From: Candidatus Streptomyces philanthi
GTDB taxonomy: Bacteria; Actinomycetota; Actinomycetes; Streptomycetales; Streptomycetaceae
Direction: 5' to 3'
Assembly (NCBI GenBank): GCA_018114805.1
Contig: CP073042.1
Coordinates: 6,927,501 to 6,991,500 of the forward strand
DNA length: 64,000 nucleotides
Shown here: positions 1-51,172 of the stretch, one piece after another
How the letters are laid out: each line of letters starts with the position of its first letter
Numbering within the stretch: the stretch's first letter is position 1
Made by a program: the position numbers and the translations under genes
The notes under the pieces: generated by a model
Told to the model about the DNA's origin: nothing
Seen by the model: only the letters and a program-made list of their open reading frames with translations
The model's database searches: none

Positions 1-694
1 GGCGCCGGGTCACCCAGGTGGTCGCCGCCGCGACCTCGGCGATCTCCAGCAGGTGCTGCACGGCGGAGGTGCCGCCGCCGACCACGACGACCCGCTGCAC
101 GGCGAACGCCGCCGGCCCTGGGTACTGGGCGGTGTGCAACTGGCGGCCGGCGAACGTCTCCTGGCCCGGGTAGCGCGGCCAGAACGGACGGTCCCAGGTG
201 CCGGTCGCGTTGATCACGGCCCGAGGCACCCAGTCGCCCACCGAGGTGCGCACCAGCAGCCGCCCGTCCGCCCCCTCGCGCACCGAGCTGACGTCCACCG
301 GCCGGCGCACCGGCAGCTCGAAGGCGCGCTCGTACGCCGCGAAGTACGCGCCGATCACTTCGGACGAGGGCCGCTCGGGGTCGGTCCCGGTCAGTTCCAT
401 GCCCGGCAGCGCGTGCATCCCGTGCACCCTGCCGTACGTCAGGGTCGGCCAGCGGAACTGCCAGGCGCCGCCCGGCGCGGGGGAGTGGTCGAGCACGCCG
501 AAGCCCGTGTTCGGCTCGAAGCCACGCCTGTGCAGGTGGTACGCGCTGGAGAGGCCGGCCTGACCAGCGCCGATGACGAGCACGTCGAGCGGCGTCGGCG
601 GCGTGGGCCGCGCGTCGCCGCTCCCGCCGAGGCCGCCGTCGGCCGCCCGGCCGACTCCGGTCCCTCGCTCGCGCACTACCCCAGTGTTGTTCAC
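1..694 (-). CDS. FAD-dependent monooxygenase / NAD(P)-binding oxidoreductase (3' end outside window)
   Basis: Open frame running off the left edge, read from a GTG at 694. After a non-conserved, Gly/Ala-rich leader of about 36 residues comes the FAD-binding Rossmann motif DVLVIGAGQAGLSSAYHL, then an NADPH-binding VVVVGGGTSAVQHLLEIAE near residue 190. Between them are TGTWDRPFWPRYPG and the GRQLHTAQY stretch typical of CzcO-type flavin monooxygenases. Expected role: NADPH- and FAD-dependent oxygenation of a small organic substrate in the cytosol; the substrate cannot be told. The C-terminal half is missing only because the window ends. The gene reads away from the sulfonate genes, and a repeat-rich region just upstream is its likely promoter. 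Confidence 0.85.
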   Translation of the reverse strand, partial: MNNTGVVRERGTGVGRAADGGLGGSGDARPTPPTPLDVLVIGAGQAGLSSAYHLHRRGFEPNTGFGVLDHSPAPGGAWQFRWPTLTYGRVHGMHALPGMELTGTDPERPSSEVIGAYFAAYERAFELPVRRPVDVSSVREGADGRLLVRTSVGDWVPRAVINATGTWDRPFWPRYPGQETFAGRQLHTAQYPGPAAFAVQRVVVVGGGTSAVQHLLEIAEVAAATTWVTRR

Positions 695-713
695 GCTTCT
701 ACTAACTTGGGTG

Positions 714-778
714 GCGCGGGAAATCTTCCCGCGCGGCACGGGCCGTACAGAACGGGCCGTACAGCGCGCCGTACGGCG
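714..778. promoter_or_regulatory. Repeat cluster upstream of the flavin monooxygenase
   Basis: An inverted repeat with 9-base arms (714-722 and 726-734, arm gcgcgggaa) is followed by a 13-base direct repeat acgggccgtacag at 738-750 and 752-764, and then by the palindrome gccgtacggc near 769-778. It lies 20-85 bases upstream of the GTG of the monooxygenase, where a promoter and operator are expected. No matching regulator is recognised. Confidence 0.4.
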
Positions 779-921
779 GCACGCCTCTCCGACACGGCCA
801 CCCCGCTCGCGCCGCCGCGGCGTGCTCCGTGGCTGGGCCGCGCCGCAGCGGCCCGTACGCCCCGGGGAAGAGCGCCCGTGCGCTTTGAGAGAGAGCGCGT
901 GCGCCCCAGAAGAAAGCCCGC

Positions 922-950
922 CCGGCCCCGCCACTCGCTGGCGAGGCCGG
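922..950 (-). terminator. Hairpin downstream of the sulfonate genes
   Basis: ccggccccgcca (922-933) pairs with tggcgaggccgg (939-950) with one mismatch and a 5-base loop. It lies 38 bases past the stop of the ssuD-like gene, which fits a transcription terminator. Confidence 0.5.
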
Positions 951-987
951 ACGGGAGCACCGCCGCCCCTCACCGCCCCCCCGGCGA

Positions 988-2172
988 TCAGCAGCGGTGC
1001 GCCACCCGGCGTGGGCACCGGGTGGCCGTGCGTGAGGAGCGCCCGCGCGCCCCGGTCGGAGCGGCCAGCAGCCCGCGCGCGGCCAGCTCGGGCGCGACGC
1101 CCTCGCCGAACCAGTATGCCTCCTCCAGGTGCGGATAGCCCGACAACACGAAGTGGTCGATGCCCAACGCGTGGTACTCCTCGATCCGGTCGGCGACCTC
1201 CGCGTGGCTGCCGACCAGCGCCGTGCCCGCGCCACCTCGCACCAGGCCGACGCCCGCCCACAGGTTCAGCGCGATCTCCAGCTTCTCCCGCGAGCCGCCG
1301 TGCAACGCCAGCATCCGCTGCTGGCCCACCGACTCGCTGCGCCCCAGAGCCCGTTGGGCGTCGTCGACCGTCTCCGCGTCGAGGTCGTCGAGCAGCCGAT
1401 CGGCGACGTCCCACGCTCGCTTCGCCGAGTCCCGCGAGATCGTGTGCAACCGGATGCCGAACCGGACCTCGCCCCCCGCGCGCTCGGCGAGACCCCTGAT
1501 CCACTCGATCTTCTCCCGCACCTGCGCCGGCCGCTCGCCCCAGGTCAGGTACACGTCGGCGTGCTCCGCCGCGACCGGCCTCGCCGCCGGCGATGAACCG
1601 CCGAAGAAGACGGGCGGCAGCGGGTCGGGCGACAGCGCCCTCAGCCCGCCCTCGATCCGGTAGTGCTCGCCGGCGAAGTCGTACGGTTCGCCGCGCCACG
1701 CGCCGCGCACCACCGACAGGAACTCCGCCGTGCGCGCGTACCGCTGGTCGTGGTCGAGGTGGTCGCCGAACCGGCGCTGCTCGGTGGAGTCGCCGCCGGT
1801 CATCACGTTCAGCAGCAGTCGCCCGCCGGTGATCCGCTGGTAGGTGGTCGCCATCTGCGCGGCGAGCACGGGCGAGAGCACCCCGGGCCGGAAGGCGACC
1901 AGGAACCTCAGCCGCTTCGTGTGCTGGGCCAGGGCGGCCGTCGTCAGCCAGGCGTCCTCGCACCAGGTGCCGGTGGGCGTCAACACCGCTTCGAAGCGCA
2001 GGTGTTCGGCGGCCTTGGCGATTTGTGTCAGGTAGTCGATGTCGGGCGCGCGCACCCCGCTCACCGGACCGACGCCCGAGCGCCCCTTCTCGGCGGCGGC
2101 GTAGGCGTGCCGATCCACCAGGGTGCGGCCGTCGCCACCGGTGGGCAGGAACCAGTGCAGGTGGATGGACAT
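988..2172 (-). CDS. ssuD: LLM-class FMNH2-dependent alkanesulfonate monooxygenase
   Basis: 394 residues, close to the usual 360-390. Starts MSIHLHWFLPTGGDGR, followed by AEHLRFEAVLTPTGTWCEDAW, the flavin-pocket stretch FRPGVLSPVLAAQMATTYQ and LLLNVMTGGD, all typical of SsuD. Family reaction: FMNH2 and O2 release sulfite from alkanesulfonates, needing a separate flavin reductase. The ATG at 2172 was chosen because SsuD homology starts there; its ATG overlaps the TGA of the binding-protein gene, so the two are probably translationally coupled. The frame appears intact although both upstream transport genes are broken. The last 20 or so residues are Arg-rich and not conserved. Confidence 0.88.
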   Translation of the reverse strand: MSIHLHWFLPTGGDGRTLVDRHAYAAAEKGRSGVGPVSGVRAPDIDYLTQIAKAAEHLRFEAVLTPTGTWCEDAWLTTAALAQHTKRLRFLVAFRPGVLSPVLAAQMATTYQRITGGRLLLNVMTGGDSTEQRRFGDHLDHDQRYARTAEFLSVVRGAWRGEPYDFAGEHYRIEGGLRALSPDPLPPVFFGGSSPAARPVAAEHADVYLTWGERPAQVREKIEWIRGLAERAGGEVRFGIRLHTISRDSAKRAWDVADRLLDDLDAETVDDAQRALGRSESVGQQRMLALHGGSREKLEIALNLWAGVGLVRGGAGTALVGSHAEVADRIEEYHALGIDHFVLSGYPHLEEAYWFGEGVAPELAARGLLAAPTGARGRSSRTATRCPRRVAHRC

Positions 2173-3209
2173 CAGTGGCCCTTTCCGTAGGAGCGGGGCG
2201 CCGCGGTGGACGGCGGCAGCCCGGCGTTGAAGCGGGTGTCCACGAAGTCCCCGAAGGAGAACCGGCGCGGGGTCAGGCCCAGTTCGGCGAAGGTATCGGC
2301 GATCTTCTGCTCGGAGGCGACCGCGGCCTCGTCCACGGCGACGGTGACCCGGGTGCCGTGCGAGCGGTGCACCGAGTCGAGCGCCGTCTCGTACGGCAGC
2401 CCGGTCTCCTTCGCCCACACCTTGGCCCACTCCTGGGGGTGCTTGAACACCCAGTCCTCGGCGCGGCGTAACCGGCGCAGGTAGTCGGCGATGACCTTGG
2501 ACTTCTTGTCGTCGTCGAGCGCCGCCGGGGCGGCCACCTGGAAGCCCAGCCCGTTCACCACGCCCTGCCCCGTCGTGAGCACCCGGGCGTCGGCCTGCCG
2601 CAGGGCCTGCGAGGTGTACGGGTCCCGGATCGCCTAGGCGTCCACCTTGCCCCGGGTGAACGCGGCCAGCGCGTCGGCGGGTTGGAGGAGGCTCATCTTC
2701 ACGTCGTCGATCGACAGACCGGCCTTGGCCAGCGACGCGGTCAGTTGGTAGTGCGCGGAGCTGCCCTGCGCGACCGCGACCGACTTCCCCTTGAGGTCGG
2801 TGACCGTGCGCAGCTCCGAGCCCTTCTTGACCACGATCGCCTCGCCGTACGAGGTGCCGTGCGTCGCCGCGATCACCTTGATCCTCGACTTCGCGGCGGC
2901 GGCGAACACCGGCGGGGTGTTGCCCACGGCCCCGATGTCCACCGCCTTCGCGTTGACCGCCTCCAGCAGCGGCGGACCCGAGGTGAAGGTCGACCAGCGG
3001 ATCTTGTACGGCAGGTCGTCCAGCTCACCGGCGGCCCGCAACACCGCCTCCGAGCCGCCCTTCTGGTCGCCCACGTTGAGCGTTACCGAGCCCTTGCCGT
3101 CGGTGGTGCCCCCGCCCGAGTTCGCGGACGAGGAGCCCGAGCAGCCCGTGATGAGCAGCACCAGCGGGAGCAGCAGGGCGGGGAGGGCGATGGCGGTGCG
3201 CACGCTCAT
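2172..3209 (-). pseudogene. ssuA: Aliphatic sulfonate ABC transporter, substrate-binding lipoprotein, interrupted by an amber codon
   Basis: Starts MSVRTAIALPALLLPLVLLITGCSG, a lipoprotein signal with its Cys in the lipobox, then the SsuA/NMT1 fold (VTLNVGDQKGGSEAVLRAAGE, VDIGAVGNTPPVFAA, VTDLKGKSVAVAQGSS). A TAG at 2634-2636 interrupts the motif VDA-W-AIRDPYT, where the family has a conserved Trp (TGG). The same frame then continues to residue 345 with good homology. Expected role: extracellular capture of sulfonates for the permease. If the stop is real only a 190-residue fragment without the second lobe is made. No permease gene is left beside it. Confidence 0.8.
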
Positions 3210-3390
3210 GTCAGCGAGTCCGTTCGGGTGCGGTGGTCGGTGATCCGTGGGTGGGTGGGGGTGGTGGCGCGCGGAGCACCGCCGGGGTCGCGGCGGGTGC
3301 TGCCGCGCGGGCAGTGCGGCCCGCGCCCTCTCGGCGGCACGCGGGCCGGGCCCGATGCCGGGCTCATGCGGTCCGTGAGGTCCATGTGGC

Positions 3391-3800
3391 TCATCCCTTC
3401 TTGCGGACGGCCCCCGAGGCGCCATCCGGTCCCGCGTCCGCCACGGCCCGCGCGGCGACGCCGGAGGCGGTCGGGGCCGCCACACCGAGTCGGTCGAGCA
3501 GTTCGGCGCGCAGCGCGGTGAACGCCGGGTCGCCCGCGTCGCGCGGCCGCTCCAGCCCCACCGGCGTCTCGTACGCGATGACCCCGCGGTCCATGACTAG
3601 CACGCGGTCGGCCAGCGACACCGCCTCGTCGACGTCGTGCGTCACGAGCAGGACGGCGCAGCCGCGCCGCTGCCACACGTCGGCGACCAGTCGCTGCGCC
3701 GTGATCCGGGTCAGCGCGTCCAGCGCGCCGAAGGGCTCGTCCAGCAGCAGCAGATCCGGTTCGCGCACCAACGCCCGAGCTAGTGAGGCGCGTTGGTCCT
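3391..3800 (-). pseudogene. ssuB: Sulfonate ABC transporter ATP-binding protein, 3' remnant
   Basis: Only the C-terminal half of a nitrate/sulfonate-type ATPase is present: QRASLARALV (after the signature), Walker B DLLLLDEPFGALDALTR and the switch VLLVTHDVDEA, ending GASGAVRKKG. The Walker A and Q-loop half is missing: homology stops near 3800, where sequence homologous to a LuxR-type regulator on the other strand begins. The remnant precedes ssuA by about 180 bases on the same strand. The usual SsuC permease is also absent and was probably lost in the same deletion. It cannot encode a working ATPase. Confidence 0.8.
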
Positions 3801-6135
3801 CGCCCTGGAGGAGCTCGTCCGCGCGCTCACCGTCAGCGGACTGCCGGCGGGCTGGGGCGCACAGCGGGAGATACTCGACGCGATGGAGGTGCCCAGGCTG
3901 CTGCGCGAGGCGATGGTGGACCAGACGACAGGGTTCTCGGCGCATGCCATGGCCGTGGTGCGCGCGGCGGCCGTGCTGCGCGTCCCCGCCGCCGAGGACC
4001 TGATCGCCGCCGTCGCCAGCGCTGAGCCCGCTTTCGCCGAAGCCGACGAACCCCGGTCCTTGGCGAGCGGCGGCCGAGCGGGTACGCGCGGAAGCGCACC
4101 GGACGCGCTGCCCGGGCACGGGGCTGGCGGCGGGGCGAACCCCCGGGTGCTCCGGCCCCCGAGCGACGTCGACGCGGGCAGCGGGATCAGGGAGGCGCTG
4201 CTGGCGGGCGTGCTCCACGACTTCGGGGGTGACCGCTACGGCTTTCGGCACTCCCTCGCCCAGCAGGCGGCCTACGACTCACTGCCGAGCCTGGACCGGC
4301 GCCGACTGTACCGCCGTGTGATGGCCGTGCTTGTCGACGTCGATCCGCCGCCGGTGCAACTCGCCTACCACGCGCCGCAGGTCGGCGACCTCGATGCCTG
4401 GTTGCGGTACAGCGAGGCGGCGGTGGACGCCGCCCGTGAGCTGGGTGACACCGCCGTCGCGGCGTAGATACTGGAGGGGCTGCTGTCCGACCCGCGTCTG
4501 CGCGGTGACGACCGGGCCAGGTTCGCCGTCCAGCTCAGCCGGGTCGCGGTGCTGGGCCTCGGCTACCGCAGGGCCATCGCGCTGCTGCGCGGCATCGTAC
4601 GGGACGGTGATCTCCCCGACGTCGTACGCGGTGACGTCCGGCTCAACCTCGGGTTGTTGCTCAGGAACCAGGCCGGGTGGTACGAGCAGGGTTGGCAGGA
4701 CACCGAGATCGCGGTCCGGGAGCTGCGCGACTCGCCTGAACTCGCCGCCCGGGCCATGGCCGCGCTGGCCATGGCGAGTTCCGGCGAGCACCCGTACGGG
4801 TCGTACCAGTGGTGGATCGCCCGCGCCGAGGGGCTCCTCACGGACCGGTCGGACCCGGCCCTGCGGCTGGCCGTCCGGGGCAATCACGTCGTCCTACGCA
4901 TGATGGCGGGCGATCCCACGGTCTGGGCCGAGGCCGAGGGGATGATGGGCGCCGGGCGGACTCCCGAGGAGTGCCTGCAACTCGCCCGGCTGTCGGGCAA
5001 CCTGGCCGAGGCCACCACCTGGCTCGGCCACTACGCGGCGGCGCAGCGGTTCCGGCGGGTTGGAGAGCGACTCGCCGCCGAGTGCGGGTCACCCTGGCTC
5101 CAGGGGATCGTCGACGGCACCTCGCTGCGGCTGGAATGGGGCCTCGGCAACTGGCGTGACCTGGCCACGCGTGCGCGCCAGGTGCTCGACATGGTGCAGG
5201 GTGTGTCCGGCACCGCGGCCGATGCGTACCTTGTCCTCGGCTTGCTCGCCATCGCACGCGGTGAGTGGGACGAGGCCACCGACGCACTGGAGGCCGCGGC
5301 CCTCGGTGACCCGGTCAACGCCCGGGCCCCCGTCCTGGCTGCCGCCGCGGGGGCGATGATGCGGGTGTGGATGGCCCGTGGCGCGCTGGGGTCGGCCCGG
5401 GCGGAGGCGGAACGGGCCGTTGCCAGGGTCCGACGCAAGGGGATGTGGGTCTGGGGCGCGGACCTCATGCCGACGGCGGTGGCCGTGCTCGTACGTCACG
5501 GGCGGGCCTCGGAGGCGGATGCCCTGGTCGCGGAGTACGCCGCGGGCATCGCCGGCCGCGACGCGCCACTGGCCGCCGCCGCACTGGAGGCATGCCGGGG
5601 GACGGTGGCGTACGCACAGGGTCACCTGGCCGCGGCCGTCGCGGCCTACGAGGCGGCGAGCGCCCGGTACGCGGCGCTGCCCAGACCGTACTCGGCCGCC
5701 CGCGCCGCCGAAGCCGCCCTGCGCTACGGTCTCGCTGCGGGCGGCCTCGCGGGCAAGGCCGGCCCGGCCGGTACGGCGGGGCGCGGCGGTGCCGGCCGCG
5801 CGGAGGGCAGGTCCGGGGCGCGGGCCGCCAGGGAGCTGACCGAACTCGCCGAACGCTTCGCCGCACTGGGCGCCACGCGGGACGCGGCCCGGTGCCGTCG
5901 GGTGCTACGTGATAACGGTGTCAGCATCTCCGCGCGACGCGTCCGGCGCGGCTACGGCGACCAACTCACGCCGCGCGAGAAGGAGGTGGCCCGTCTCGTG
6001 GCCACGGGGCGCACGAACCGGGAGATCGCCGACGTGCTCTTCCTGTCGCCAAGGACGGTCGAGCAGCACGTGGCGCGAGTGCTGCACAAACTCAACCTCA
6101 ACTCCCGCAGCGAGGTACCCGCGGATGCCTACTGA
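3793..6135 (+). pseudogene. LuxR-family large ATP-binding regulator (LAL), N-terminus deleted, internal amber
   Basis: The frame holds the middle and C-terminal parts of a LAL regulator: PRLLREAMVDQTTGFSAHAM and a helical TPR-like repeat region, then a C-terminal LuxR helix-turn-helix TPREKEVARLVATGRTNREI and FLSPRTVEQHVARVLHKL (residues about 725-775). The N-terminal ATPase with Walker A and B is absent: homology begins at 3793, directly abutting the truncated ssuB on the opposite strand. A TAG at 4465-4467 interrupts the frame further. If reinitiated at 4549 it could give a 528-residue protein with repeats and HTH, but without ATPase control. Ends with TGA at 6135. Confidence 0.8.
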
Positions 6136-6257
6136 CTACTCTGGCCTCCGCCGACCTCGCCGGTCCGGGTGGCGTGGTCGTGGGGTGGTTGGCTTCTGCC
6201 TCCCTGCTGCGAGTACGCCGACCGGAGCGTCATGGGTCGCGTCGCCACCACACGTCG

Positions 6258-6283
6258 GTGCGGGGCCCCCGGGGGCCCCGCAC
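6258..6283. terminator. Perfect 26-base palindrome (hairpin) between convergent genes
   Basis: Arms gtgcggggccccc and its exact complement form an uninterrupted palindrome between the LAL gene (+, ends 6135) and the protease gene (-, ends 6445). The position suits a bidirectional terminator. There is no loop, so the hairpin would open a few central bases. Nothing else is recognised between 6136 and 6444. Confidence 0.5.
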
Positions 6284-6444
6284 GCTGTGGATGGTCTCCC
6301 TCGGAGGTCGGATGGGGGACGGCCCGGCCTCCGAGGCGACGAGCGGTAGCCGTCGATGGTGGGGAGGCTCGGCGGCCCGTGCGGGAGAAGGCAGTCAGCC
6401 GTGGTGGGTGGCAGGGCCGGATGGTCCGTCGAGCGACGGCAGGG

Positions 6445-8253
6445 TCAGTTACCGAAGCAGACGGTCTGGCTGCCGTAGTCACGGCACTGGATCTGCTTGG
6501 TCGCGGTGCCGGCGTTGCCTGCCCGGTCGGTGACCATGAGCTCCGCCGAGTAGGCCTTCTGACCCGCCGGGTAGGTGTTCTTGGCCGTCCTACCCTCGCC
6601 GGTCTTGCCGTCGCCGAACTTCCAGGCGTACGCGGAGATGTCACCGTCCTTGTCGGTGGAGCGGGAGGCGTCGAAGGCGCACGTGTCGTTCCGGCAGGAG
6701 ACGGTGAACCGTGCCACCGGCGGCTCGCCCGTCGCCCTGCCGACGGTCACCTTCCTGGTGACGGTCCCGGTCTTGCCGCTGTTGTCGGTCACCGTCAGCT
6801 TGACCTCGTACGAACCCGCCTTGTCGTAGGTGTGCGACGGCTTGGCCCCCTCGCCGGTCGTGCCGTCGCCGAACTCCCACGCGTACGAGGAGATCGAACC
6901 GTCCGGGTCCTTCGACGCGGACGCGTCGAAGGCGCACGTGGTGTTGGTCCCCGAGCAGGTGGGTGTGAACTCCGCTGTCGGCTTGCCGGGGTCGGCGGGG
7001 GCGCCGAGACTGGTCACGTCGAGGAACTTGTTGGGCGAGCCCGTGCCCGGGTTGGTGACCACGCCGTCCCGTGCGGCGGCGATCACCGCGTCGGTGGCCT
7101 GCGCGCTGCTCGCCTTCGGGCTGTTCTCCAGGTAGAGGGCGAGCGCGCCGGCGGCGTGCGGCGCGGCCATGGAGGTGCCGCCCATGGTGGTCTTGCCGGT
7201 GTCGGAGCTGTTGCTGGCCGAGGTGATGTTGCCGCCGGGGGCGAATAGGTCGATGCAGCGGCCGTAGTTGGAGAAGCTGGACCGCGCGTTGTTGCTGTCG
7301 GTGGAGCCGAGCGACAGCGCCTCGGGCGTGTCGCCGGGCGAGGTGCCGCACGCGTCCTGGTTGGCGTTGCCCGCCGAGATCGCGGTCGTGAATCCTGCCT
7401 GCACGGCTCGCTTGGTCGCGTCCCGCATGCCCTGCGGGTCGGCGTTCGGACCGCCGGAGCCCAGGCTCATGTTGATGACGCCGGGCTTCTTGCCGTTCTT
7501 GACGACCCAGTCGATGCCCGCGATGGTGTCCGCGTCGGGACCGCTGCCCTGGCAGCCGAGCACCCGTACGGCGACGATCTTGGCCTGCTTGGCCACGCCG
7601 TACTCCTTGCCGGCGATTGTGCCGGCTACGTGCGTGCCGTGGCCGTAGCAGTCGGCGGCGTCGGTGTCGTCGTCGAGGAAGTCGTAACCGGACGAGGCGC
7701 GGCCCTCGAAGGTCTGGTGCGAGAACCGGGCGCCTCAGTCGATGACGTACGCGGTGACCCCCGCGCCGGTGCCCGGGTACTCGTACGCCTTGTCCTGCTT
7801 GCCGTTCACGGCGTCCAGGCCCGAGGACGGCGGGTTGGGTTGGCTGCCGCCCCCGGTCGCGCGCACCGTCAGGGACTGCTGCACGTAGGCAACTTCGGGG
7901 TCGGCCGCCAACCGCTTGCCCTGGCCGGGCGTCATCCTGGCGGAGAAGCCGCGCAGGGCCGCGGTGTAGACCCGATCGGCGTCGCCGCCGTAGCGGTCGG
8001 TGAGCCGGTCGGCCTGGTCGGTGACGGCGGTCTCGGCAGCCATGGAGGCCGAGGTGGAGCCCTTGACCGAGACGATGTACAGGCCGTCGACGGCGCCGGG
8101 GACCCCGGCGTTGATGACCGTTCCCTCGGCGGCCGTGCCGCCGCGGTCCTCAGTGGCCTGGGCGGGCGCGCCGGCCATGGCCAGCGCGGCCGTGACGGCG
8201 AGCCCGGTACAACATGCTGTCAACCAGCGGTAGGTCCTTGTCGCGGTTCTCAT
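6445..8253 (-). pseudogene. Secreted S8 (subtilisin-like) serine protease with two PKD domains, opal codon at the catalytic Asp
   Basis: 602 codons from the ATG at 8253. Signal peptide MRTATRTYRWLTACCTGLAV ending APAQA; I9-type propeptide (YIVSVKG to VAYVQQ, about residues 45-125); S8 catalytic domain with Asp in AYVID, His in GHGTHVAG and Ser in [12 protein letters not shown]; then two PKD repeats (YAWEFGDG and YAWKFGDG), each with a pair of Cys. A TGA at 7735-7737 directly follows the catalytic Asp, where the family has Thr or Ser (DTG/DSG). Without readthrough only the propeptide region is made. Expected role: extracellular proteolysis, with PKD domains aiding binding to polymers. The C-terminus ends QTVCFGN. 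Confidence 0.85.
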
Positions 8254-14765: not shown

Positions 14766-15913
14766 ATGTCGGGTCGTGACCCCGGCGAACCGCACAGGAC
14801 CGCCACCTCGCTGGAACTCCTCTTCGACCTGTGCGTCGTCATAGCGGTGGCGCAGGCGTCCGCGAGCCTGAGCACAGCGGTGATCGACGGGTAGTACGTC
14901 ACCGGCCTGCTGCGCTTCGCTCTGGTGTTCTTCACCATCTGGTGGGCGTGGATGAACTTCACGTGGTTCGCCTCGGCCTACGACCCGGACGACATCCCCT
15001 ACCGGTTGGTGGTGCTGGTCCAGATCACGGGGTCGCTCATTCTCGCCGCCGGCGTACCCCGGGCGTTCGGGGAAGGCGACCTGCGCGTCATCACGTTGGG
15101 ATACGCCGTACTGCGCACGGCCCTGGCCGTGCTGTGGCTGCGTGCCGCACGGTCGGACCCCGGTCGGCGGCGGACGGCACTGCGTTTCGCCACTGGGGTG
15201 ACGAGCTGTCAGGTCGGGTGGATCGGGACGCTCCTGCTTCCCGAGCCGGCTCGACTGCCGGCCATCATCGTGTTGATCGTCGCCGAGATCTCCGTCCCGG
15301 TGTGGGCGCAGTCCGCCGGAATGACCCCGTGGCATCGACACCACATCGCGGAACGCTACGAACTGTTCACCCTCATCGTGCTCGGTGAGTCCGTCGTGGC
15401 CGCCGCGGCGGCGGTCCGCAGTGCCTTCGCGACCAGGGCCACGGCGCGGGTGCGCTGTACCTGCTGGCCGCGGGTGGCCTGCTCATGGTCTTCGCCATGT
15501 GGTGGCTGTACTTCGCCAGGCCCGCGTACACGCTGCTCACCTCAACGCACCAGGGCCATCGCAAGAGGTTCACCTGCGCGTACGGCCACTACCTGATCTT
15601 CGCTTCGGCGGCAGCCGAGGGGGCCGGCTTGGCGGCGTACGCGGGGTTGGTCACGCGGCGCGCCGATGCCCCGCCGGTGGCAGCGGGTGTGGCGGTCACC
15701 CTGCCACTGGCGGTCTTCCTGATGACCGTGTGGGCCATACACGTCCGGCCGCACCGGCAGAGCGGGACCGGCCCGTTCGCGATTCCCGTCGGCGCGGTTA
15801 CCGTCCTGGCGGCCGCTCTCTCCCCGACGCCGGCTCTGGTGGCCGGTCTGTCGGCGACGGCCCTGGTCGTGGTCGTCACGGTGGTCGACCGGACCGGGCG
15901 GGCGCGGCACTGA
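14766..15913 (+). pseudogene. Low temperature requirement protein A (LtrA) family, amber and frameshift
   Basis: Starts MSGRDPGEPHRTATSLELLFDLCVVIAVAQ, the LtrA N-terminal signature, and continues FFTIWWAWMNFTWFASAYDPDD, the family hallmark. Predicted polytopic membrane protein of unknown biochemical role, about 380 residues. TAG at 14892-14894 falls at residue 43, before the first conserved WWAWMNF block. A one-base shift near 15430 (after AAVRSA) breaks ALDQGHGAGALYLLAAGGLLMVF. The remaining helices then continue to TGA at 15913. Both defects lie within otherwise well-conserved sequence. Confidence 0.85.
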
Positions 15914-16328
15914 GGTGGTGCCCACACGGCCGCGCGGGCCAAGCGACCTGGCCCGCGTGGCCGTTCGCCTTCCGTCAGCGCGCCCCGCGAATTGCCGGCC
16001 GCGCGGCCGCTGTCCGCAACGGCGCACCGCCGCGTGCGGGCGTCCGCCATGACGATCGAGCGCTGGGACCACCGGTGCGCGGTGAGGCAAAGCCCGGTGC
16101 GCTGACGGGATATGGGCGCGCGTCCGCCGCGCCTATCGTGAGGGCGAAGCAGTCGAGGCCCCTTACGCACAGGGTCAGCCCTCGCTCTCAGGCACGACGA
16201 TGTCGGTGGAAGGCCACTCGGTTGGATTCGAGTAACGGGGCATGTGAGCGTGGCTGAAATCGCCGAAGTCCGCCAGTGCCGACCCGTGATGTGAATCGAA
16301 GTCGTTTTCCCAGAGGGAGTCTCACGTA
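15914..16328. promoter_or_regulatory. Intergenic region upstream of the amidohydrolase
   Basis: 415 bases with no recognisable gene. The last 15 bases hold a good ribosome binding site (gagggag) for the ATG at 16329. The stretch 16225-16320 is less GC-rich than its surroundings (for example ttggattcgagtaacgg and gtgaatcgaagtcgttttcc), as expected of a promoter. Confidence 0.45.
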
Positions 16329-18221
16329 ATGTCAACAATGCCCGTCGGCGGGCTGGTTCCGCATGCCGTCGACCATGCCACGGACCTCGTCGTCCGCAAT
16401 GCGAAGATCCACACGGGCGACCCGCGCCGCCCGTACGCCGAGGCGCTGGCCATCCGCGACGGCGTCATCACGGTCGTCGGTGACGACCGGGACGTGGCCG
16501 GGCACGTCGGCCCGGGCACCAAGGTGGTCGACGCGCTCGGGCGGCGGGTGGTCCCGGGCCTCAACGACACGCACCTGCACGTGATCAGAGGGGGCCTGAA
16601 CTACCTACTGGAGCTGCGCTGGGACGATGTGCGCAGCCTGCGTCAGGGATTGGCGATGCTGCGTGAGCAAGCCGCCCGCACCCCGAAGGGCCAGTGGGTG
16701 CGGGTGGTGGGGGGCTGGTCGGCGGAGCAGTTCGCCGAGCGTCGGCTGCCGACCGTCGCGGAGCTGAACGCGGCCGCCCCGGACACGCCGGTGTTCGTCC
16801 TGCACCTGTACCAGTCGGCCGTGTTGAACCGGGCGGCGCTGAAGGCCGCCGGCTTCACCAAAGACACGCCCGATCCCAAGGGAGGGCAGAGCGTGCGGGG
16901 CCGGAACGGGGAGCCCACCGGCATGCTGCTGGCCGCGCCCAGCGCCCTCATCCTCTACTCGACCCTGGCCAAGGCACCGGTGTTGCAGAGCGAGGAGGAG
17001 AAGAGGACCTCCACGCGGCATTTCCTGCGCGAGTTGAACAGGTTCGGGCTCACCTCGGCGATCGACGCCGCCGGCGGATTCCAGAACTTCCCCGACAACT
17101 ACGCCACCGTCATCGAACTCGCCAAGGCCGGACAGCTCTCGCTGCGTATCGCCTACCACCTCTTTCCGCAGACTCCGGGGCGGGAGATCGACGATCTCAC
17201 CCGCTGGATCGAAACGGCCCGCCCCGGGGACGGGGACGAATAGCTGCGGCTGAACGGCGCGGGTGAGAACCTCATCTGGTCGGCGGCCGATTTCGAGAAC
17301 TTCGCCGAGCCGCGTCCTGGACTCGCCTCGGACTACGAGGTGGAGTTCGAGAAGGCGGTCCGCCTGCTCATGGAGAACGGGTGGGGGTTCCGGCTGCACG
17401 CCACCTACGACGAGACCATCCGCCGGGACCTTGCGGTGTTCGAGAAGCTCACCGCGGAAGGACTCTTCCCGGCTGGGAACCGGTGGCTGTTCGACCACGC
17501 GGAGACCGCCTCCGCGGACAGCCTCGACCGCATCGCCGCGCTCGGCGGGGCGATGTCCGTGCAGAACCGATTGTCCTTCCAGGGCGAAGCGTTTCTGCGG
17601 CGTTACGGCCCCGGAGCGGCCGCGGACGCCCCGCCGATCCGCGCCATGCTGGACCGAGGCCTGACCGTGGGCGCCGGCACCGACGCCACCCGGGTCTCCT
17701 CCTACAACCCCTTGGTCGCCCTGCACTGGCTCGTCAGCGGTCGCTCGGTCGGTGACCTAGCGCTGCGCCCGCCGGCGAACCGCGTCGACCGGGGGAGGGC
17801 GCTGGCGATGTTCACGTGCGCCGGCGCCGCGCTGACCGGTGAGGACGAGGTCAAGGGCGTTCTCAGGCCCGGCTGTTACGCGGACCTGGCGGTGCTGTCC
17901 GAGGACTTCTTCAGCGTGCCCGAGCCGGACATCGCGCACATCGAGTCGCTGCTGACGGTGGCCGGCGGCCGCATCGTGTACGCCGCCGCCGAGTACGAGG
18001 GGCTCGACGAGGAACTTCCGCCCGTCAGCCCCGCGTGGAGCCCCGTGGCGCACGTCGGCGGCTACCAGACCCCCCGCCGGACGGCCCGCTCCGGCGCCGG
18101 CCAGGCGGAGGCACTCGGCCAGGCCGTCGCCGAGTCGGAGCAACACCGCCAGTGGCGCGTCGCGCGCGGCCTGGCTCCCGACACCGCGACCACCCCCTTC
18201 GATCCCTGCTTCGACCTGTGA
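16329..18221 (+). pseudogene. YtcJ-like metal-dependent amidohydrolase, amber at a likely Trp
   Basis: 630 codons. N-terminal beta-sandwich strand DLVVRNAKIHTGDPRRPYAEAL, then the metal-binding GRRVVPGLNDTHLHVIRGG (HxH, about residue 85), GWGFRLHATYDETIRRDL with a catalytic-domain His, WLFDHAETA and LTVGAGTDATRVSSYNP with the Asp ligand. TAG at 17241-17243 splits DGDE and LRLNGAGENLIWS, a site that reads best as DEWLRL. Expected role: hydrolysis of a C-N bond in an amide or formamide; the substrate is unknown. It leads a plus-strand set with an isochorismatase-like hydrolase, a pairing that suggests amide or amine breakdown. Confidence 0.82.
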
Positions 18222-48174: not shown

Positions 48175-48429
48175 TGCCGCGCCGGCGGAACGTGGCACGT
48201 CGGGCGGCCCACGGCTCGCGGCCGTCGTCGACGACGGGAGGATGGCGGTGACCCGCGACGCCCCACCCCGCGCCTACGACTGCCGGATCACGGCGACCCC
48301 CACAGCGTTCCTGCTGGTCTCCTTCCGGCGCACCCCCGTCTGGAGGCTGTGGCATGCGGTCACCCGCGGGCCAGCGGGCGCAGGCCGTGGTCGGCCAGGC
48401 GACTCGGGTCGCTGGTCGCCAGCCCCTGA
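48175..48429 (+). pseudogene. C-terminal remnant resembling a maleylpyruvate isomerase-family protein
   Basis: A short stretch reads VDDGRMAVTRDAPPRAYDCR and ITATPTAFLLVSFRRTPVWR in one frame and, after a shift near 48360, ASGRRPWSARRLGSLVASP then TGA in another. The pattern (A-x-D-C-x-I, P-T-A-x-L-L, GRRPW, LxSLxxxP, stop) matches the C-terminus of mycothiol-dependent maleylpyruvate isomerase-like proteins as I remember them. No N-terminal DinB-like domain precedes it: the stretch starts just after a terminator. A truncated, frameshifted relic; identification is tentative. Confidence 0.4.
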
Positions 48430-51003: not shown

Positions 51004-51172
51004 CCGGCGGGCCGCTGGCGGGCCTGGCGCTGCTTGACGGCCTGGCCGGCGAACGGCAGCTCCAGGCGTACCACCCGTACCAGGCCGCCCGCGGGGACCT
51101 GCTGCACTGGCTCGGCCGGCTGCCGGAAGCTGCGACGGCCTACCGGCGGGGCGGCGGGCTGGCGGGTGGGGC
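51004..51172 (+). pseudogene. C-terminal fragment of an ECF sigma factor (DUF6596 type)
   Basis: GPLAGLALLDGLAGERQLQA, YHPYQAARGDLLHWLGRLPE and AATAYRR match the last helical repeats of SigI/RpoE-like ECF factors that carry the DUF6596 extension. No sigma-2 or sigma-4 region precedes it; it begins right after the C-terminal homology of the synthase and ends against the 3' end of the deformylase. About 50 residues of a protein normally about 400 long. A deletion or insertion scar. Confidence 0.7.

Follow-up and report, generated by a model that had tools for sequence, protein, structure and literature searches.

Genome erosion is reportedly incipient in the beewolf symbiont 'Ca. Streptomyces philanthi', whose linear 7.3 Mb chromosome is said to carry frameshifts in more than one third of the genes, with transporters and regulators reportedly being frequent targets. 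Numerous pseudogenes, larger deletions included, are also present in Sodalis and Mycobacterium leprae. According to published accounts, Sodalis and M. leprae represent pseudogene-rich symbiont or pathogen genomes (PMC13345370), beewolf symbionts produce streptochlorin while the lower versatility of biovars such as 'triangulum' probably stems from genome erosion (PMC4236554), and strain ID71268, which is close to S. buecherae, likewise produces streptochlorin (PMC10127220).

The window analyzed here, a stretch of 64,000 nucleotides, occupies positions 6,927,501–6,991,500 in a genome assembled as one contig of 7,341,895 bp. Near its left end a remnant of an ssuB-like transporter gene and a LAL-type regulator truncated at its 5′ end meet head to head. 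The comparison with two close relatives, G031 (probably S. buecherae AC541, NZ_CP060404.1) and a second genome, G154, suggests that the scar was likely made by a single recent deletion.

The ssuB–LAL junction

A scan of the reading frames and alignments to the relatives place the ssuB-like remnant on the reverse strand directly against the LAL-like sequence on the forward strand (Table 1), which confirms the head-to-head arrangement proposed in the initial annotation. The breakpoint, however, is found at approximately 3801–3805 and not at 3793–3800 as initially suggested, since positions 3793–3799 are still ssuB sequence with a single substitution at 3797 relative to both G031 and G154. The proposal that both genes lack their 5′ halves is correct for ssuB, where about 146 of 328 residues are kept up to the stop at 3391 and about 55% including the start is lost, but it overstates the loss in the LAL gene, which amounts to about a quarter (248–303 of 1027–1082 residues, the range being set by the choice of start codon).

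Table 1 Features at the junction and in the corresponding segment of G031.
Feature	Coordinates	Strand	Evidence or remark
ssuD-like alkanesulfonate monooxygenase, open	988–2172	−	Bac_luciferase, E=2e-71
ssuA-like pseudogene (sulfonate-binding protein)	2172–3209	−	TIGR01728 on both halves, under cut-off
ssuB-like remnant, C-terminal part	3391–3804	−	NF008420 positions 137–243 of 257
Deletion junction	3800–3805		Flanks of G154 and G031 aligned to window
LAL-type regulator remnant without ATPase domain	3805–6135	+	GerE match; 92% to G031 gene
In-frame TAG inside LAL remnant	4465–4467	+	Glu in intact G031 protein
Subtilase with PKD domains, interrupted	6445–8253	−	TGA at about 7735–7737, TCC in G154
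G031 8,206-bp segment, ssu side			5′ part of ssuB; ssuC (PF00528)
G031 segment, six further genes			ORF without Pfam match; holin-X family gene (PF07332); DUF3618; BrkB (PF03631); UPF0047/YjbQ; trypsin-like gene (PF00089)
G031 segment, far end			AAA_16 ATPase end of 1082-aa LAL regulator

The part missing from ssuB includes the Walker A motif in the ATP-binding N-terminal half, and the cut itself falls in the ABC signature region. The NF008420 match begins at position 137 of the profile in the remnant and at position 11 in the intact G031 gene (11–242). The full-length G031 gene matches both ABC_tran and NF008420, yet the scores of the remnant (125.7) and of the intact gene (250.5) are both below the cut-off of 395, hence the designation SsuB-like; the names ssuA, ssuB and ssuD are all best-family assignments under the NCBIfam curated cut-offs, that of the intact G031 ssuB included.

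On the other side of the junction, the loss covers the whole AAA_16 domain, which occupies residues 72–229 of the G031 protein and thus lies inside the 303 lost residues, and a profile scan of the window frames finds no AAA_16 domain in the window parts of the LAL gene. A LuxR-type HTH remains near the 3′ end (GerE, E=3e-18), downstream of the in-frame TAG at 4465, and the ATPase-less stretch 4549–6135 still encodes 528 residues with no stop and the HTH kept. A combined reading, in which the lineage would be a second, undescribed and rapidly decaying Streptomyces near S. buecherae and not 'S. philanthi', and the LAL remnant would still be made as an unregulated DNA-binding factor, is considered quite improbable.

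The two flanks are joined with almost no sequence in common. The left flank of G154 matches exactly through 3804 and the right flank exactly from 3804, leaving one shared base, while in G031 the left flank is exact through 3801 and the right flank begins at 3804, leaving none. The junction has no long repeat and no filler sequence, and the order and orientation of the flanks are the same as in the relatives. By a chance calculation, random joins of the same DNA share at least one base in 51% of cases and at least five in 1.2%. Inspection of the junction for microhomology, as the initial annotation had advised, thus yields an exact overlap of 0–1 bp, which is no better than chance, and microhomology was dropped as the cause. 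A 5-bp similarity at 3800–3804 contains one mismatch and does not show microhomology, although the imperfect match could mask an older one. Because the exact overlap stays within chance, the sequence suggests illegitimate end joining as the simplest mechanism.

The segment retained in relatives

Window positions 1–3804 and 3800–6197 align to both G031 and G154 in the same order and orientation at 92–95% identity. In the G031 locus (L040) they correspond to 3086–6859 and 15066–17474, respectively, both at 92%. Between these flanks lie 8,206 bp in G031, which the window lacks, and 133,469 bp in G154. The intervening segment which the initial annotation had advised looking for in a related genome is therefore found in G031, with the same genes in G154, and the losses it had predicted, namely the ssuB start, the SsuC permease and the LAL ATPase domain, all fall inside the G031 segment. 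The three genes ssuB, ssuC and LAL are open in both relatives, and the complete LAL proteins have 1082 residues in G031 and 1098 in G154, each with AAA_16 and GerE domains.

When 295 genomes of the genus, among them the studied one, were searched at the DNA level, 294 gave matches; among the matches listed, only G031 and G154 carry both halves at 90% identity or more, and no listed match from the 294 other genomes shows the junction. Relatives sharing the junction with intact functions, the case that would have spoken against the initial proposal, are accordingly not seen among these matches. A further search of 150 relatives, 91 of them shared with the first search, added no genome among the matches listed. 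A scan of genome contigs gave 36 loci, of which two match more than just the HTH end, one from S. buecherae AC541 at 93% (L044) and the other (L045) from a Streptomyces MAG, at 71% over residues 1–288 on a 5.6-kb contig.

The longer interval in G154 consists of the same genes as in G031 and an extra block of about 125 kb between the YjbQ and trypsin-like genes (L041 16071 to L042 10100). A 20-kb piece of the block, searched at E <= 1e-100, has best matches of 69–72% in G031, whereas the studied genome gives a single match at 89%, over 682 bp, and others at 68–71%. With nothing close to the piece in G031 and only that one stretch in the studied genome, the block was more likely gained by G154, as judged from these identities. 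A 15-bp overlap at the block edge was considered as an attachment site and dropped, as no clean direct repeat is visible by eye.

This variation of the interval, G154 having about 125 kb more, could be taken to indicate that the contact between ssuB and LAL is ancestral and that the relatives acquired the 8.2 kb by insertion. Such an insertion, however, would have had to supply exactly the missing parts of two genes, and in G031 as well as G154 both genes are complete with open frames; furthermore, the studied genome has a complete LAL paralogue elsewhere, and in many genomes of the genus the match to ssuB stops at the junction base (query position 414), so that an ancestral contact is hardly credible.

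The segment was also sought in the studied genome itself with a query of 7,641 of its 8,206 bp, the remaining 565 bp at the LAL end (L040 14501–15065) lying outside the query. Over the queried part it was not found at orthologue identity, the best matches being a trypsin paralogue (82%), a LAL paralogue at 1.22 Mb (81%) and a BrkB paralogue (69%); the best SsuC-like protein has 29% identity. The LAL paralogue is an open gene of 1076 residues with both AAA_16 and GerE domains. In the region 1,205,000–1,224,999 (L038), the LAL and subtilase genes recur as a second, diverged copy, and the 82% trypsin match lies alongside.

An assembly misjoin, whereby the segment would be present in the organism and dropped from the assembly, is very improbable. 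The genome is a single contig with 99.54% completeness, both flanks are collinear with two relatives, similar gaps occur nearby, and the queried part of the segment is nowhere else in the assembly at orthologue identity. A deletion from the chromosome is thus the favored reading of the gap.

Decay around and beyond the junction

Lesions also lie next to the junction. In G031 the alkanesulfonate uptake operon keeps the order ssuD-ssuA-ssuB-ssuC, whereas the window has lost ssuC and half of ssuB, and its ssuA is interrupted by an in-frame TAG at 2634–2636, where G154 reads TGG; the G031 ssuA is an open ORF of 345 residues. The ssuD-like gene, with NF001939 as its best NCBIfam match (453.8 bits, below the cut-off of 510), has two 1-bp indels relative to G154 near the 3′ end, at 982 and 1053, and is now left without a complete transporter alongside. 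The outcome is a broken sulfonate-uptake operon together with a truncated regulator. Beyond the LAL remnant, the interrupted subtilase has an open counterpart in G154 with Peptidase_S8 and PKD domains.

The window is mostly collinear with 213 kb of G154 and contains further gaps relative to both relatives. The largest, at 51005–51014, is 5.6 kb long with aligned flanks that overlap by 9–10 bp, and smaller ones are located at 48202 (0.7–1.5 kb), 45730 (285 bp) and 51144–51166 (127 bp). Between 10987 and 16070, five stretches are longer by 158 to 1,230 bp in the window than in G154, through either gain or loss. The presence of several other gaps would be compatible with the scar being the product of two or more successive deletions, but the unchanged order and orientation of the flanks and the lack of filler mean that a single event suffices, and a stepwise origin is unlikely.

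In a two-way census of the window, 40 of the 114 G154 ORFs aligned over at least 95% of their length and 74 were left out. Among those aligned, 27 of 40 read through less than 90% of their length in the studied genome as opposed to 13 of 46 in G031 (P=0.0005), and any in-frame stop or frameshifting indel is present in 30/40 and 14/46, respectively. GC3 and length served as the criteria for calling ORFs, and broken ORFs are also seen in the relatives; in the reverse view, ORFs called in the studied genome are broken in 15/39 cases in G154 and 8/21 in G031, perhaps as a result of spurious ORFs in decayed DNA. The three-way counts for the window (3/12 and 4/9 broken in the studied genome; 0/8, 0/3, 2/11 and 2/11 in the relatives) are small and unremarkable alone.

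An excess of broken genes is also seen in a 60-kb core sample. Of the G154 genes intact in G031, 14 of 34 are broken in the studied genome, against 1 of 21 in the corresponding G031 comparison (P=0.004), and the same analysis from G031 ORFs gives 12/29 against 0/15, the remaining counts for the relatives being 2/25 and 0/22. Raw frameshifts in the G154 ORFs of this sample number 41 in the studied genome and 29 in G031, a narrower gap than for broken genes. In a sample at 6.5 Mb the three-way counts are 4/21 and 4/23 in the studied genome and 1/18, 0/19, 0/19 and 0/19 in the relatives, while the two-way counts (6/24 versus 5/35 in G031) show little excess. A sample at 0.7 Mb, compared two-way only, has 14 broken among the 19 aligned of 36 ORFs; samples at 2.0, 5.6 and 7.2 Mb were left out of the decay counts. 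The counterpart of positions 725,001–735,000 of the studied genome lies on the opposite strand, near 6.17 Mb in G154 and near 6.38 Mb in G031, so that the genomes differ by a large rearrangement.

Many of the frameshifts are 1-bp indels, which raises the prospect that the decay near the junction reflects sequencing error, i.e. false indels and stops, with the large gap alone being real, a reading compatible with the deletion. As a control, no indel is present in 22.2 kb made up of 27 genes for translation, SecY and RNA polymerase, whereas 6 (core rate, P=0.002) or 21 (window rate) would be expected from the frameshift excess of the studied genome over G031; this excess was used since the relatives show frameshifts too, the raw rates giving 21 (core) and 32 (window). 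The 27 genes were picked by eye or position from 34 aligned ORFs, seven more being unaligned; of the seven dropped, four are broken (201, 257, 197 and 294 aa), the rest having 310, 112 and 732 aa. Because the housekeeping genes lack the expected indels, sequencing error is a poor explanation; moreover, the stops arise from substitutions and indels of 4–34 bp are present too, leaving only a very slight chance for such artifacts. Inactivating lesions are numerous in this genome, which is undergoing early, widespread erosion, and the deletion, as one among them, is an ordinary event in this setting.

Age of the deletion and comparison with known erosion

Comparison with G031 and G154, the two informative relatives, which differ in interval length, shows a missing segment, the removal of ssuC together with the ATPase domain and, in the regions sampled, more broken genes than in the relatives, while one event, the mechanism of its joining, its original length and its age are inferred. 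In the favored model, which we regard as likely, a single recent deletion would have taken ssuC entirely, along with the 5′ part of ssuB, the six genes listed in Table 1 and the ATPase-encoding end of the LAL gene. Its length would be about 8.2 kb, although it could reach about 133 kb had the ancestor possessed the block that G154 alone carries today, and the ends would have rejoined with essentially no common sequence, that is, by illegitimate joining and not by recombination between repeats.

The changes unique to each branch provide an approximate timing. In the kept part of the LAL gene, the ratio of nonsynonymous to synonymous changes (N/S) is 0.27 in the studied genome, 0.29 in G031 and 0.19 in G154 (Fisher P=0.78), and purifying selection thus seems to have acted on this part along most of the branch leading to the studied genome. 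Because the remnant still looks constrained there, the deletion appears to be young. The ssuB remnant, with an N/S of 0.12 on 13 changes, is in line with a young cut. For ssuA, in turn, the ratio is 0.68 versus 0.08 and 0.26 in the relatives (Fisher P=0.011 against both together), which suggests that ssuA was relaxed earlier. The locus would therefore present one roughly dated step of erosion, in which ssuA was relaxed first, other genes of the operon were later removed by a deletion no shorter than 8.2 kb, and the adjoining regulator was cut while apparently still constrained. Since the close relatives retain the genes, how and in which order a Streptomyces loses genes may be read event by event in this genome.

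The overall picture resembles the erosion reported for 'Ca. Streptomyces philanthi', as the genome studied here is a single contig of 7.34 Mb and the lost functions are those of a transporter and a regulator. Genome size, level of decay and kinship to S. buecherae make this beewolf symbiont the most likely identity of the organism, and streptochlorin production both by beewolf symbionts and by strain ID71268 is compatible with it. Compared with the fraction of more than one third of genes reportedly affected there, broken genes make up 14/34 in the core sample and 4/21 in the 6.5-Mb sample. In contrast to Sodalis and Mycobacterium leprae, the present case concerns a large, high-GC Streptomyces chromosome, and the ssuB–LAL deletion is a new instance of an already known type of event.
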